Part shown: positions 574 to 5,122 of the stretch, piece by piece
How positions within the stretch are numbered: position 1 is the stretch's first letter
Layout: each line of letters starts with the position of its first letter
NCBI RefSeq assembly: GCF_900176205.1
Contig: NZ_LT859959.1
Coordinates: forward strand, 7,553,001-7,617,000
Direction of reading: 5' to 3'
DNA from: Bradyrhizobium sp. ORS 285
GTDB taxonomy: Bacteria; Pseudomonadota; Alphaproteobacteria; Rhizobiales; Xanthobacteraceae
Length of the DNA: 64,000 nucleotides
Position numbers and translations under genes: made by a program
The notes under the pieces: model-generated
Databases searched by the model: none
The model's input: only the letters and a program-made list of their open reading frames with translations
Told to the model about the DNA's origin: nothing

Positions 574-948
574 CTAATCGCGCCGCCGCAGCACTGCCTC
601 CAAGGCTTCTGTCGGACAAGGCTTCGGCAGACGCGGCCGGTCCGAAAAGGCCGCCGGCACGCCGTCTGCGCCGTAACCGGTCGAGAAGGCGAAGGGAATG
701 CCGAGCGTGCTCAGCCGCTCGGCAATCGCAAAGCTCTTTTCGCGGACGAGGCCGACATCGAGCAGCGCGAATTGCGGTGCTCGCTCCTCGATCATGGCCA
801 GCGCCGTGACGACGTTGGCGGCGACCCTGACGTCGGCGACGCCAAGGTCGGTGATGGTGTCTTCCAGGCCGAGCGCAATGATCGGGTCGTCCTCGACGAC
901 CAGCACATGCTGGTAGAACTCGGGCACGCTGGATTGCGAGCTGGTCAT
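574..948 (-). CDS. Single-domain response regulator (receiver only)
   Basis: A CheY-like receiver domain: VLVVEDDPIIA with the acidic pocket near the N-terminus, FALLDVGL with the phosphorylatable Asp, and a LPKPC segment with the conserved Lys near the C-terminus. No output domain follows, so it probably passes phosphate or acts through protein contacts. The start at 948 gives a normal short N-terminus. An in-frame ATG at 1038 has a better Shine-Dalgarno (AGGAACT) and would add 30 residues, so the start is uncertain. It is divergent from the Crp/Fnr gene at 1115, and the two may share a promoter region. No histidine kinase is adjacent. Confidence 0.85.
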   Translation of the reverse strand: MTSSQSSVPEFYQHVLVVEDDPIIALGLEDTITDLGVADVRVAANVVTALAMIEERAPQFALLDVGLVREKSFAIAERLSTLGIPFAFSTGYGADGVPAAFSDRPRLPKPCPTEALEAVLRRRD

Positions 949-1114
949 ATGATCTGCGGGTTCCAAGATGAAAGCTGGCTCCCGCAGCCGGCGCCTCATT
1001 GCAAGCACGCTGGCGGGTCCTGGAACCGAAGCCATCATATCGGAGTTCCTGTGTCGGTGCACTTGTGAACACAAGGAGCACGGATCACGCACATGCGTAG
1101 CGCGGGGAGCGACG

Positions 1115-1876
1115 ATGCTGAGCCAAGGGGTGACGACACTCGCGCGGGAGCGGCCCTACAACAATCTGTTGCGCCGGCTGAGTCCCGCCGATTACGCGCT
1201 GATCTCGCCCTACCTCGTCGAAGAGGAGACCTCGCCGAATGAGCTGCTGTACCGTCCCGGCGACGATGTTCAGATCGTGCATTTCCCCTGCGGGCCGGCT
1301 CTGACGTCCTATCTCGTTCCCAATGAGGACGGCCGCGATGTCGAGACCATCCTGGTCGGCCGCGAGGGCGCTGTCGGCGGCATCGTCAGCGAAGGCTTCC
1401 TGCCGGCCTATACGCGCATCGTGGTCAAGTTCGGCGGCCCGTTCGCACGGCTGCCGCTGTCGCGGCTGGCAGCCGCCAAGCTGCAATCCAAGACCCTGCG
1501 CAACGTGTTCGCGCGCTATGCCGACTGCATGTTGGCGCAGATGTTTCAATCCACCGCCTGCAACGCCATCCACTCGATCGAGCAACGCACCGCGAAATGG
1601 ATCGTCGCTGCGATGGACCGCACCGACGGCGAGCCGATCGTACCGCTGACGCACGAGCAACTTGCCACCTTGTTGGGAGTCGGCCGCAGCTATGTGAGCC
1701 GTGTCGTCCAGACCTTCAGGGCCGAGGGCATCCTCGAAACCAAGCGCGGCGCCTTCATGGTGCGCGACTTCGATGCCCTGAAGCACCGCTCCTGCCTGTG
1801 CAACGAGGCGGTGAAGAGCCATTTCGAGGAGGTCCTGCGCGGCGTCTATCCGACCGAGCAGGCCGCCACAGGCTGA
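1115..1876 (+). CDS. Crp/Fnr family transcriptional regulator
   Basis: A protein of 253 residues. The first ~150 residues form a cyclic-nucleotide-binding-like beta roll (ELLYRPGDDVQIVHFPCGPA, then ETILVGREGAVGG). The C-terminus holds a Crp-type winged helix: LTHEQLATLLGVGRSYVSRVVQ, then FRAEGILETKRGAF for the wing. The start at 1115 has GGGGAG about 8 bases upstream; longer in-frame starts lack this. Cysteines are few and not clustered near the N-terminus as in Fnr, so direct iron-sulfur oxygen sensing is unlikely. The recognition helix (GRSYVSR) differs from the FixK/Fnr type (E-x-x-SR). Signal and targets are unknown. Confidence 0.85.
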   Translation: MLSQGVTTLARERPYNNLLRRLSPADYALISPYLVEEETSPNELLYRPGDDVQIVHFPCGPALTSYLVPNEDGRDVETILVGREGAVGGIVSEGFLPAYTRIVVKFGGPFARLPLSRLAAAKLQSKTLRNVFARYADCMLAQMFQSTACNAIHSIEQRTAKWIVAAMDRTDGEPIVPLTHEQLATLLGVGRSYVSRVVQTFRAEGILETKRGAFMVRDFDALKHRSCLCNEAVKSHFEEVLRGVYPTEQAATG

Positions 1877-1906: not shown

Positions 1907-1920
1907 TTGCGTTTGATCAA
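1907..1920 (+). promoter_or_regulatory. FixK/Fnr-like box upstream of the Lgt-like/radical SAM operon
   Basis: The 14-mer TTGCGTTTGATCAA fits the FixK/Fnr pattern TTG-N8-CAA. It lies 34 bases before the ATG at 1954 and after the Crp/Fnr gene's stop. If used as an activator site centred near -41, transcription would start at or very near the ATG, which makes the geometry tight. The match is seen directly; microaerobic control of the operon is inference. Confidence 0.45.
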
Positions 1921-1953
1921 GGGAACTTGCCATAGTCCGAATGCAACCGGACG

Positions 1954-2682
1954 ATGGGAGTCATGGACGGCGCCGCTCTTCACGCGATCTTCGACGTCGC
2001 TGCCTGGCTCAGCGCGGCCGCCGCGGGCTGGTGGCTCGCGCGTGGCGCGGGTGTCCGCTTTCCGAAGCAGTCGACCGAATGGCCCTATGTCGCCGCGCTG
2101 GTGTTCGGCGCCGGGCTCGGCGCCTACCTGTTCGGGACGCTGAACCTGTGGCTGTCCGGCATGACCGGACTGGCGCGCTCGGTCGAGGGCGCGCTCGCCG
2201 GTGGCATCGTGGCGGTCGAACTCTACAAATGGCGGCACGGCATCGCCCTGCGCACCGGCGCGCGCTTTGCGCTGCCGCTAGCAGTCGGCATCGCGGTCGG
2301 CCGTATCGGCTGCTATCTCGCCGGGCTCGATGATTTCACCTATGGCACGCCGACGACCCTGCCGTGGGGGCACGATTTCGGCGACGGAGTTCTGCGCCAT
2401 CCGGTGCAGCTCTATGAGAGCCTCGCGATGGCGGCCTTTGCCGCGCTCTACATCGTCGCGGTGAAGAGGCGGAACGAAGCCATCATCACCAACGGCTTCT
2501 ATCTCGCTTTGCTCGTCTACGGCCTGCAGCGCTTCGTCTGGGAATTCTTCAAGCCTTATGGGCCGGTGATCGGCCCACTCACCCTCTTTCATCTGCTGTC
2601 GCTGGCGATCGCGGCCTATGCCGCGGTCATGCTGGCGACGGCTCCGCAAGCCAAGGTCCTGCATGAACGCGCCGCTGCGTAA
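1954..2682 (+). CDS. Lgt-like integral membrane protein (prolipoprotein diacylglyceryl transferase family)
   Basis: A membrane protein of 242 residues with about seven hydrophobic segments. Lgt signatures are visible: GRIGCYLAGLDDFTYG at 116-131 (family form GRIGNFINGELYG), TLPWG at 135-139 and RHPVQLYES at 148-156. The conserved Arg is kept (117), but the Asn that follows in Lgt is Cys (120), so it may be a paralogue acting on a different acceptor or lipid rather than the housekeeping enzyme. The ORF overlaps the radical SAM start by 20 bases, implying translational coupling. Starts at 1954 and 1963 are both possible. Lipid-transfer chemistry is inferred from the family. Confidence 0.75.
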   Translation: MGVMDGAALHAIFDVAAWLSAAAAGWWLARGAGVRFPKQSTEWPYVAALVFGAGLGAYLFGTLNLWLSGMTGLARSVEGALAGGIVAVELYKWRHGIALRTGARFALPLAVGIAVGRIGCYLAGLDDFTYGTPTTLPWGHDFGDGVLRHPVQLYESLAMAAFAALYIVAVKRRNEAIITNGFYLALLVYGLQRFVWEFFKPYGPVIGPLTLFHLLSLAIAAYAAVMLATAPQAKVLHERAAA

Positions 2683-4075
2683 GTCACGTCCCTACGTGTT
2701 CTGGGGACAGACGCAATCCCTCTGCGAGACCTGTCTCGCGCTGGTGCCGACCAAAATCCAGATCCTCGACAACGAGGTCTGGTACGAGAAGCGCTGCAAG
2801 CAGCACGGCGTGCAGTCGACGCTGGTCTCCGATGACGCGGCTTATTGGCGGCGCTGCAAGTCCTTCATCAAGCCCGGCGACACGCCGCTCAGCTTCCAGC
2901 GCCGCACCGAATATGGCTGCCCCTATGATTGCGGACTGTGTCCCGACCACGAGCAGCATTCCTGCCTGGCGCTGATCGAGATCACCGATCACTGCAACCT
3001 GACCTGCCCCGTGTGCTTCGCCGAATCGTCGCCGCAGCGCGCGCATTTCACTCCGCTCGCGACCGTCGAGCGGATGCTGGATGCGCTGGTCAAGAGCGAA
3101 GGCGAGCCGGACCTGGTGCAGATTTCCGGCGGCGAGCCGACCTTGCATCCTCAGTTCTTCGATATCCTCGCTGCGGTGCGCGCCCGCCCCATCCGCCATG
3201 TCATGATCAACACCAATGGCCTGCGCATCGCGCGCGAGCCGGAGTTCGTGGCCCGCTTGGCTGAGAACAAGCGCGGGCTCGAGGTCTATCTGCAGTTCGA
3301 CTCGCTGTCGCGCGCCGGCCTCACCAACATCCGCGGCGCCGACCTGCGCCGCATCCGGCAGCAGGCTCTGGAAAACCTCGAACGTGCGGGCATCTCCACC
3401 ACGCTGGTCGCGACCATCAAGCGCGGCGTCAATGACGATGAGATCGGCGACATCGTCCGCCATGCGCTGCAATGGCGCTGCGTGCGCGGCGTCACGTTGC
3501 AGCCGGTGCAGGACGCTGGCCGCAATGCCGATTTCAACAAGGACACCGACCGCATCATGCTGTCGGAGATCCGCCGCCGCGTGATCGAGACCGGCGTGTT
3601 CGGCGACGACGACATGATCCCGCTGCCCTGCAATCCCGAGAGCATCTCGATCGGCTATGGCCTGCGCAACGGCAGCACCGTGCTGCCGCTGACCTCGATG
3701 GTGCCCGAGGCGGAACTGCTGTCGGTGATGCCGAACACGATCAGCCCGGAGAAATACCCGGTGCTGCGTGAAAAATTCGTCGAGCTGTTCTCGCTGTCGT
3801 CGGGGCCGCTCAACACCAGCGAGCGCGTCGCCGAATTCCTCTGCTGCCTGCCATCAGTCCAGGTCCCCGACAATCTCGGCTATGAGCACGTGTTTCGGGT
3901 GACCATCGTGCAGTTTCTCGACCGCTTCAATTTCTGCGTCGCCAATGTCAAGCGCTCCTGCATCCATTTCGTCACCGAGCGCGGCGAGATCATCCCGTTC
4001 GACACCTACAATCTGTTCTACCGCAACGGCGAAATCGACGGCATCCGTGCAAGGTTGGGGAAGGCAGACACGTGA
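2663..4075 (+). CDS. Radical SAM protein of the MJ0619/Tes-like type
   Basis: A protein of 470 residues. Canonical radical SAM motif CNLTCPVC with Cys at 111, 115 and 118, and the SAM-binding motif QISGGEPTLHP. Before it lies a cysteine-rich head: C21-x2-C24, C45 and C65 (rubredoxin- or zinc-finger-like), then C86, C90, C93 and C101 in CPYDCGLCPDHEQHSC. This head plus a TDHCNLTCPVCFA core resembles MJ0619 (pterin methylase) and the archaeal tetraether lipid synthase Tes. Chosen start ATG 2663 overlaps the Lgt-like gene; the next gene's GTG overlaps its stop. The Lgt-like partner and four membrane peptides point to lipid chemistry, which is inference. Regulation may be by the box at 1907. Confidence 0.8.
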   Translation: MNAPLRKSRPYVFWGQTQSLCETCLALVPTKIQILDNEVWYEKRCKQHGVQSTLVSDDAAYWRRCKSFIKPGDTPLSFQRRTEYGCPYDCGLCPDHEQHSCLALIEITDHCNLTCPVCFAESSPQRAHFTPLATVERMLDALVKSEGEPDLVQISGGEPTLHPQFFDILAAVRARPIRHVMINTNGLRIAREPEFVARLAENKRGLEVYLQFDSLSRAGLTNIRGADLRRIRQQALENLERAGISTTLVATIKRGVNDDEIGDIVRHALQWRCVRGVTLQPVQDAGRNADFNKDTDRIMLSEIRRRVIETGVFGDDDMIPLPCNPESISIGYGLRNGSTVLPLTSMVPEAELLSVMPNTISPEKYPVLREKFVELFSLSSGPLNTSERVAEFLCCLPSVQVPDNLGYEHVFRVTIVQFLDRFNFCVANVKRSCIHFVTERGEIIPFDTYNLFYRNGEIDGIRARLGKADT

Positions 4076-4305
4076 GCGATGGGCCTCCCAATCTGCCGCC
4101 GAGCGCCACGCGTCATGGCTGCCTGTCCGCACTGATGGTCGTGGGCGGCGTCGTTCTGCTGTTGCCCGGGCTATGTGCCGGGCTGTTTGCCGCTGATGCG
4201 CTGACACGTCTGAGTTGGCCCCGCGAGATCGGTCCGCTGATCCTGTTTGGGCTGTTCTGCGGTGCAGCCGGTCTCTGGCTACTTATCAGGGTCTCGCGGG
4301 GGTAG
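4072..4305 (+). CDS. Small two-helix membrane protein, operon member 1
   Basis: A peptide of 77 residues starting at a GTG that overlaps the stop of the radical SAM gene (GTGA). After a short proline-rich head (MSDGPPNLPPS) come HGCLSALMVVGGVVLLLPGLCAG and a second hydrophobic stretch, PLILFGLFCGAAGLWLLI: two transmembrane segments. It resembles the next peptide at 4382 in layout (MSD-x-P…LPP…GCL-x-AL…G…LL-x-P). I recognise no named family. The coupling suggests it serves the radical SAM or Lgt-like protein, perhaps as a membrane anchor. Confidence 0.6.
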   Translation: MSDGPPNLPPSATRHGCLSALMVVGGVVLLLPGLCAGLFAADALTRLSWPREIGPLILFGLFCGAAGLWLLIRVSRG

Positions 4306-4381
4306 CGGACGAGGCACAGATCGCATTCTCTCGGAGTGTTATCGATGTTTCCAGCAATTCGTCTCATGATGCCTGGCCGCC

Positions 4382-4630
4382 ATGAGTGATCGACCGATCC
4401 TTCCTCCTGAGCTTCCTCCGCAGCCACAACGCTCGGGTTGTCTTGCCGCGCTTGGGATCATTGCCGGTCTCATCCTGCTATTTCCGATGACCTGCGTCCT
4501 GGTGGCCTTCCCAAATCAGATTACGCTCAGCGACCTGATCCATCCGGTCGGGGTGCTGTTCATCGGCGCGGCCATCGCTGGCGTCGTGCTGATCGTCCTT
4601 GCCGTTCGGTCAGATCGTCGCCGTTCATGA
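4382..4630 (+). CDS. Small two-helix membrane protein, operon member 2 (paralogue of member 1)
   Basis: A peptide of 82 residues with a proline-rich head (MSDRPILPPELPPQPQ), a Cys-containing first helix (SGCLAALGIIAGLILLFPMTC) and a second helix near VLFIGAAIAGVVLIVLAV, ending in a basic tail RSDRRRS. Layout and spacing repeat those of the peptide at 4072, so the two look like a tandem duplication. A gap of 76 bases separates them. The stop overlaps the next ATG (ATGA). Unknown family. Confidence 0.6.
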   Translation: MSDRPILPPELPPQPQRSGCLAALGIIAGLILLFPMTCVLVAFPNQITLSDLIHPVGVLFIGAAIAGVVLIVLAVRSDRRRS

Positions 4631-4863
4631 CGCCGCAGCCACGACAGTCCGCGCTCTGGATCGGCTTGAGGGTCATCCTCGGGATCCTGGTGCTGCTGAT
4701 CGGGCTGGTGCTGATCGCGCCAGGCTTGCTATGTTTCGTGATGGAGTTACGCGGGCCGAGCTCCGGCAGTCCGCTCGAGGGAGTCCTGTTCTTGTTGGTC
4801 CTCGTCGGACTGCTGGTCGTGGTCTTCGCGATCCGTCTGATGCTGCCGCGCCGCCATGGATGA
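4627..4863 (+). CDS. Small two-helix membrane protein, operon member 3
   Basis: A peptide of 78 residues starting at the ATG overlapping the previous stop. Two hydrophobic segments: IGLRVILGILVLLIGLVLIAPG and GVLFLLVLVGLLVVVFAIRL, with a basic end LPRRHG. The LLxGLxLxAPGLLC motif echoes the LLLPGLC of member 1, so members 1 to 3 may share an origin. No known family recognised. Its stop lies inside the start of the next gene (8-base overlap). Confidence 0.6.
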   Translation: MTPQPRQSALWIGLRVILGILVLLIGLVLIAPGLLCFVMELRGPSSGSPLEGVLFLLVLVGLLVVVFAIRLMLPRRHG

Positions 4864-5122
4864 TGATCCGTTCCACCGCCGTCCGCCGCTGTCGCCCTTC
4901 CTGGAGGAGGTGCGCAGGCCCCGTGAGCCGGTCAGCGGAGCGACCACGCTGTTGCAGATCCTGATTGCCCTCACAGGGCTGATTCTGCCGGCGGGCATCT
5001 TTTTTGCGTTTAAATTGGAGATGGTTCGGGGCGGTTTGTTCGGGCCGATCTGGGCCGTCATTGTCCTGGCTGTGCCCTCGGTCGGATTGATCGCCTGGGC
5101 GCTCTATCGCTGGTTACGCTGA
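4856..5122 (+). CDS. Small two-helix membrane protein, operon member 4
   Basis: A peptide of 88 residues with an acidic and basic cytoplasmic head (MDDDPFHRRPPLSPFLEEVRR) and two hydrophobic stretches, LLQILIALTGLILPAGIFF and PIWAVIVLAVPSVGLIAWAL, ending YRWLR. Its start overlaps the previous gene by 8 bases. It is less like the other three peptides. This is the last gene of the operon; the next gene (typA) is 280 bases away. Function unknown. Confidence 0.6.
   Translation: MDDDPFHRRPPLSPFLEEVRRPREPVSGATTLLQILIALTGLILPAGIFFAFKLEMVRGGLFGPIWAVIVLAVPSVGLIAWALYRWLR

Follow-up and report, generated by a model that had tools for sequence, protein, structure and literature searches.

Organization of the Locus

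The window, by which we mean the whole stretch of 64,000 nucleotides analyzed here, belongs to the 7.8 Mb genome of Bradyrhizobium sp. ORS 285. Close to its beginning lie genes for a paralog of prolipoprotein diacylglyceryl transferase (Lgt), for a radical SAM enzyme of the Tes/TrsS superfamily (hereafter rSAM), and for four small proteins with two transmembrane (TM) segments, S1 to S4 (table 1). An initial annotation had described six overlapping or nearly touching genes, with overlaps of 20, 4, 4, and 8 bases. These open reading frames were confirmed, S1 and S2 being 76 bases apart. The module had also been given a start at 1907, but this is a TTG in another frame, and the Lgt-like gene opens with the ATG at 1954.

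Table 1. Genes of the module and the adjoining regulator, with positions in the window
Feature	Position	Strand	Remarks
CRP/FNR-type regulator	968..1876	+	directly upstream of the module; not counted as a core part
Lgt paralog, 242 aa	1954..2682	+	Lgt fold
Tes/TrsS-superfamily radical SAM enzyme (rSAM), 470 aa	2663..4075	+	20-base overlap with the Lgt-like gene
S1, small 2-TM protein	4072..4305	+	LLPGLC motif; GTG start; 4-base overlap with rSAM
S2, small 2-TM protein	4382..4630	+	S1 paralog; Cys retained (FPMTC); 76-base gap from S1
S3, small 2-TM protein	4627..4863	+	layout as S1/S2; APGLLC; 4-base overlap with S2
S4, small 2-TM protein	4856..5122	+	layout as S1/S2; Cys lost (PAGIF); 8-base overlap with S3

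The matches of the Lgt-like and rSAM proteins to PF01790 (8.6e-20), PF04055 (1.6e-22), and PDB 7tol (6.5e-61) are not due to chance. The nearest relatives of the rSAM gene are found in Bradyrhizobium (94%), with 96% to a locus of Bradyrhizobium aeschynomenes (L102), and between the window and this locus the Lgt-like gene has a dN/dS of 0.135 and rSAM one of 0.062. The regulator gene was left out of the core because it adjoins the module in Bradyrhizobium-type loci only. Control of the module by FNR/FixK was considered and dropped: a TTGA-N6-TCAA site with one mismatch is present at 1907-1920, but the window contains 11 such sites against 8.4 expected, and among 101 upstream regions 15 have a site with at most two mismatches against approximately 6.5 expected, a mild excess.

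A Tes-Related Radical SAM Enzyme outside the Tes Clade

The cysteines of rSAM listed in the initial annotation (21, 24, 45, 65, 86, 90, 93, and 101) are all present. We followed these and other ligands across 107 loci, a count including repeats (for example window/L128, L029/L131, and L030/L132; apparently also L099/L029 and L072/L034). The rubredoxin-type site C21-X2-C24-X20-C45-X2-H48, with the same spacing as C9-X2-C12-X20-C33-X2-H36 in Tes, is kept in 105-106 of the 107 loci, and the N-terminal cluster ligands C86, C90, C93, and H96 (three Cys and a His, as in Tes) in 106. They are accompanied by C101, which is Cys in 105-106 loci; wherever one of these cysteines is missing, the alignment has a gap. 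C65, by contrast, is Cys in 69/107. The CX3CX2C motif of the RS cluster (C111, C115, and C118) is found in 106 loci, with one gap, and the residues of Tes that bind 5'-deoxyadenosine, Arg210 and Gln268, have equivalents in every locus (R224 and Q280; 107/107). Further cysteines lie in the C-terminal part (C323, C394, C395, and C433), where residues 377-392 of the predicted model have pLDDT below 50.

Similarity to MJ0619/Tes had been proposed for this enzyme, and our analysis supports one part of that proposal: rSAM belongs to the MJ0619/Tes superfamily but lies outside the archaeal Tes clade. In the phylogenetic tree, the 55 rows of the module family and the 16 Tes rows fall into two separate clades, each with support 100/99; the former includes L122, whose contig ends before any Lgt gene, and the tree was built without L141, L144, and L145 (Nonomuraea). 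rSAM scores 259.7 bits against the NCBIfam Tes equivalog (cut-off 450) and 298.4 bits against TrsS (NF045646; cut-off 490), the latter being nevertheless its best NCBIfam score; loci L039 and L040 pass the TrsS cut-off with 537 and 568 bits. The Tes ligands of the C-terminal cluster are not retained either. At the Met439 position Met is found in 20/107 loci (Val in the window), Tyr459 is Tyr in 0/107, the Cys455 position is Ser in 103/107, and the Cys470 position is Asp or Glu in 105/107; Met439, at the C-terminal cluster site, and Tyr459 are reported to be completely conserved across 1000 archaeal Tes homologs.

Could the module carry out the ordinary reaction of Tes or Mss, the tail-to-tail coupling of sp3 carbons into membrane-spanning lipids, which would be the idea of the initial annotation taken most strictly? 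We regard this as distinctly unlikely, although the fold and the ligands at three of the four metal sites are retained. Besides the separate clade and the replaced C-terminal ligands, rSAM lacks parts of the Tes C-terminal region, and no need for an Lgt partner is known for archaeal Tes. The altered C-terminal site disfavors a plain copy of the Tes reaction, though the variants M439A and Y459F of Tes remained active (PMC9433317), and a role in brGDGT synthesis has been proposed for bacterial Tes homologs (PMC8941075).

An Lgt Paralog with Retained Donor-Site Arginines

The partner of rSAM has the Lgt fold. Both donor-site arginines of E. coli Lgt have equivalents, Arg143 as R117 (102 of 104 sequences, Lys in two) and Arg239 as R193 (104/104). 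In contrast, the His103 of the HGGL motif has no counterpart (His in 0/104), an invariant cysteine, Cys120, stands at the Asn146 position, and the R246 position is Lys in 102/104 Lgt-like proteins. In Lgt itself, whose active site faces the periplasm, His103 is needed and has been proposed to bind the peptide acceptor, while the E. coli variant R246K failed to complement (PMC4728403). The best score against the NCBIfam Lgt equivalog is 49.8 bits, below the cut-off of 334, and a second, canonical Lgt is encoded in the same genome. Although one annotated record names the paralog as a lipoprotein enzyme, it probably is not one.

Conservation of the Pair and Taxonomic Distribution

The pairing of the two genes that the initial annotation had pointed to was borne out by the neighborhood survey. 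Searching GTDB genomes with the rSAM alignment, we found the Lgt-like gene next to rSAM in 78 of the 80 best loci among the matches listed, and in the two exceptions rSAM lies just 5 and 81 bases from the upstream end of its contig. It was likewise present in all 13 loci of the phylum draw (the window itself among them, along with two loci already counted). The Lgt-like gene almost always precedes rSAM, but in L095 it is downstream; a gap of 0.2-0.9 kb separates the pair in six other loci. Loci L108 and L122 have no Lgt (contig ends) and L079 only its tail. Pairwise distances of rSAM and Lgt-like proteins correlate. BipA, a neighbor in Bradyrhizobium, is recurrent beside the module only near the window's order and was not found within loci L042 and L043, so that the linkage of the pair is more than shared location. 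Among 46 chosen loci, protein clustering inspected by eye retrieved as further families common to at least eight only apparent ABC ATPases, LysR regulators, and response regulators.

Within families, whichever of the two proteins served as the query, the genomes retrieved were identical: the window's family contributed 10 of 149 (counting close rSAM) and the Paenibacillus family 23 of 148. In the window's family, another five genomes have rSAM matches without an Lgt-like gene: G009 (TrsS), G040 (L038, in neither family), G043 (a remnant), and G013 and G057 (weak matches); G100 carries TrsS besides the module. The pairing in 33 of the 33 module genomes favors a membrane substrate over a soluble one. 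A soluble substrate, pterin-like or that of TrsS, with the Lgt-like protein as a mere membrane anchor or transporter, is in our judgment improbable. TrsS gives rSAM its top NCBIfam score, and MJ0619 was initially named a pterin methylase (PMC9433317). Yet the TrsS-type loci L039 and L040 have methyltransferase genes (by eye) and no Lgt nearby, as do, by annotation, the relatives in Mycolicibacterium and Halorarius.

Named loci come from Pseudomonadota, Bacillota, Chloracidobacterium, and Melainabacteria-type and Planctomycetota MAGs. Two of the latter (L071 and L095) branch within Proteobacteria and could be binning errors. In Persicobacter (Bacteroidota), an rSAM with 48% is accompanied by an Lgt-like protein with GRIGC and by a 59-aa small protein ending in IGTGICGSLLS. 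In Mycobacterium branderi (Actinomycetota), we found an rSAM with 33%, which is without the three N-terminal cluster cysteines, an Lgt family protein, and two small proteins with GLCTG and GVCTG. Cultured genera with the module include Bradyrhizobium, Caulobacter, Sphingomonas, and Paenibacillus, which are aerobic. Overall, the distribution is patchy (10/149, 23/148, 13/397 in the phylum draw, and 6/386 in the class draw, divergent type included), and loss also occurs, since L041 is an rSAM gene remnant adjoining BipA. Patchiness would suit a viperin-like anti-phage defense module, as would a weak PADLOC pVip match to the rSAM core (1.5e-12). However, that match spans the common radical SAM core only (residues 106-223), and the full-length fold is that of GDGT-MAS; judged on rSAM itself, a defense role is extremely improbable.

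Small Membrane Proteins with a Conserved Cysteine

The small proteins are the third conserved component of the module and not mere accessories. By HMMs (domain E below 1e-2), 98 of the 107 loci have a small TM protein with a near-invariant cysteine next to the pair, and in nine none is recognized; among the latter, L127 has its own small TM open reading frame with a cysteine between the two genes, and L044 and L045 have small TM proteins with LFGTC and LAGTC. An HMM built solely from sequences outside the window's family recovered a small protein in all 37 loci within it and matched no other open reading frame there; the reverse HMM, built from the window's family, recovered one in 22 of the 70 remaining loci and again nothing elsewhere. 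The initial annotation regarded most of the small proteins as interrelated. This holds for S1 and S2, recovered by an HMM trained without window-family sequences (E 2e-5 and 8e-4); the same model did not recover S3 and S4 at 1e-2. S3 has 49% to a protein in L102, and the L102 counterpart of S4 retains the cysteine (FPFGC).

In the alphaproteobacterial type, G-x-C closes TM1 (Cys in 102/104 unique segments), and the charges indicate an N-in helix with the cysteine at its outer end. In the Bacillota type, LNAAC lies in the last helix (Cys in 15/16), and the charges do not fix the side of the cysteine. Such a protein might itself be the substrate, the Lgt paralog lipidating its cysteine or rSAM cross-linking it as in RiPP maturation, and the several fast-evolving small copies would then be several precursors. 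We consider this scenario rather unlikely. The motif departs from the consensus lipobox, the rSAM fold is far nearer the lipid enzyme than RiPP enzymes, and the Bacillota-type charges leave the side of the cysteine unsettled. Furthermore, His103, essential in Lgt and its proposed acceptor binder (PMC4728403), is absent in 104/104.

Proposed Function

The membrane setting suggested by the initial annotation is supported, and the module probably modifies membrane lipids. The suggestion of a lipid substrate comes from kinship: rSAM is related to a lipid enzyme and its partner to a phospholipid-binding enzyme with the donor arginines intact, the third part is membrane-only, and L044 has, as its fifth gene, a methyltransferase of the ICMT/PEMT family. 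None of the features noted here hints at hopanoids, which the initial annotation had named as one possible chain. We put forward that the Lgt-like protein, rSAM, and the small cysteine protein form a three-component membrane module that is self-contained, occurs patchily, and acts on a lipid, a scheme that could equally prove right or wrong. The Lgt paralog would hold a glycerophospholipid resembling phosphatidylglycerol in the old Lgt donor site. On the cytoplasmic side, rSAM would generate a 5'-deoxyadenosyl radical and abstract hydrogen from an acyl chain, either that of the bound lipid or that of an adjacent one, a new bond being formed with the aid of its auxiliary metal sites. The small TM protein, with its cysteine at the outer helix end, would be a dedicated partner, either scaffold or lipid acceptor.

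Several observations count against this scheme. Since the Lgt active site is periplasmic and radical SAM enzymes are cytoplasmic, a shared substrate would have to extend across the bilayer. TrsS, which is not known to have a lipid role, is nearer to rSAM than Tes by NCBIfam score (298 vs. 260 bits). Nine of the 107 loci are without an HMM-recognized small protein, and apart from common-looking regulators and ATPases, inspection by eye turned up no further gene family that accompanies the module in different lineages. Finally, the Lys found at the R246 position in 102/104 is a replacement that did not complement in E. coli Lgt (PMC4728403).

A bolder version of the lipid scheme, which we hold to be unlikely, is that the Lgt fold was converted from a lipoprotein enzyme into the membrane component of a machine for radical lipid modification. 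In it, the lipid would be bound as a thioether by Cys120, the new cysteine in the active-site region, or by that of the small protein, and rSAM would make a new C-C or C-S bond on the chain. If true, the product would be a lipid or lipid-protein adduct of an undescribed kind in common soil bacteria.

Comparison with Known Systems

Bacterial homologs of Tes are known and are relevant to the reading of brGDGT-type climate proxies. In the parts available of the respective papers, Zeng et al. (PMC8941075) report 456 bacterial Tes homologs with a hypothesized role in brGDGTs, Tes homologs are noted in bacteria for which no biphytanyl chains are known (PMC9433317), and Mss is described as the bacterial coupling enzyme (PMC13274423, PMC11868695); these same parts of the four papers make no mention of an Lgt partner or a small protein. 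A literature search covering few subscription journals found, among the titles listed, none on the Lgt-like/rSAM pair or the small protein. The module adds a large Tes-related subfamily that is consistently accompanied by a membrane partner and by a small third component, and it is present in cultured genera, where its function can be addressed experimentally. It also presents an Lgt paralog probably without a lipoprotein-enzyme role.

With Tes/GDGT-MAS (MJ0619; PDB 7TOL/7TOM), rSAM shares the full fold, the rubredoxin-type site, the N-terminal cluster, and the RS cluster. It differs in its separate clade, altered C-terminal cluster ligands, additional C101, C323, C394, and C395, absence of segments of the Tes C-terminal region, and pairing with an Lgt paralog. 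The TrsS radical SAM (seleno)protein has the C101 equivalent in common with rSAM, but the Met and PFC positions are conserved in TrsS, which clusters with Tes and apart from the module clade. Mss, the bacterial membrane-spanning lipid synthase, is said to share the catalytic architecture of Tes (PMC13274423, in the part available) and is likened here by description only. Compared with Lgt (PDB 5AZB), the paralog keeps the fold, the GR-I-G signature region, equivalents of R143, Y235, and R239, and the RHPxQLYE block, whereas His103 is missing, Asn146 is replaced by the invariant cysteine, and R246 by Lys.

Loss and divergence of the module

In G043, a genome of the same family as the window, the module was lost at L041: a C-terminal remnant of the radical SAM gene (67-68 residues, 74-75% identity) adjoins a BipA gene whose match spans BipA's length. 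In the window itself the cysteine of the small protein S4 is gone, and the counterpart in L102 (titled Bradyrhizobium aeschynomenes) retains it. The divergent regulator pair upstream of the module is found again in L029 and L030. In the divergent operon version of L044, the gene following the Lgt-like one encodes an ICMT/PEMT-family membrane protein.

Positions of features in the window and compared loci
Feature	Locus	Position	Strand
Response-regulator gene and CRP/FNR-type regulator, divergent, upstream	window	574-1876	minus / plus respectively
S4	window	4856-5122	
Radical SAM remnant	L041	7004-7207	
ICMT/PEMT-family protein	L044	9670-10644	
Related radical SAM enzyme with its neighbouring genes	L142	2326-7366	
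Mycobacterial module radical SAM enzyme	L144	4890-6434	

Actinobacterial and TrsS-type relatives

The mycobacterial enzyme of L144 is without the three N-terminal cluster cysteines and retains the QHTC cysteine; an IS200/IS605 pair follows its gene. On a Mycolicibacterium vanbaalenii plasmid (L142), a related enzyme (39%) is encoded beside genes for a methyltransferase, CcdA and a protein disulfide oxidoreductase, along with another radical SAM gene. Within the window's family, L039 and L040 carry genuine TrsS genes, which at 537 and 568 bits exceed the cut-off of 490. Near them no match to Lgt was found, and apparent nucleotidyltransferase and methyltransferase genes lie.
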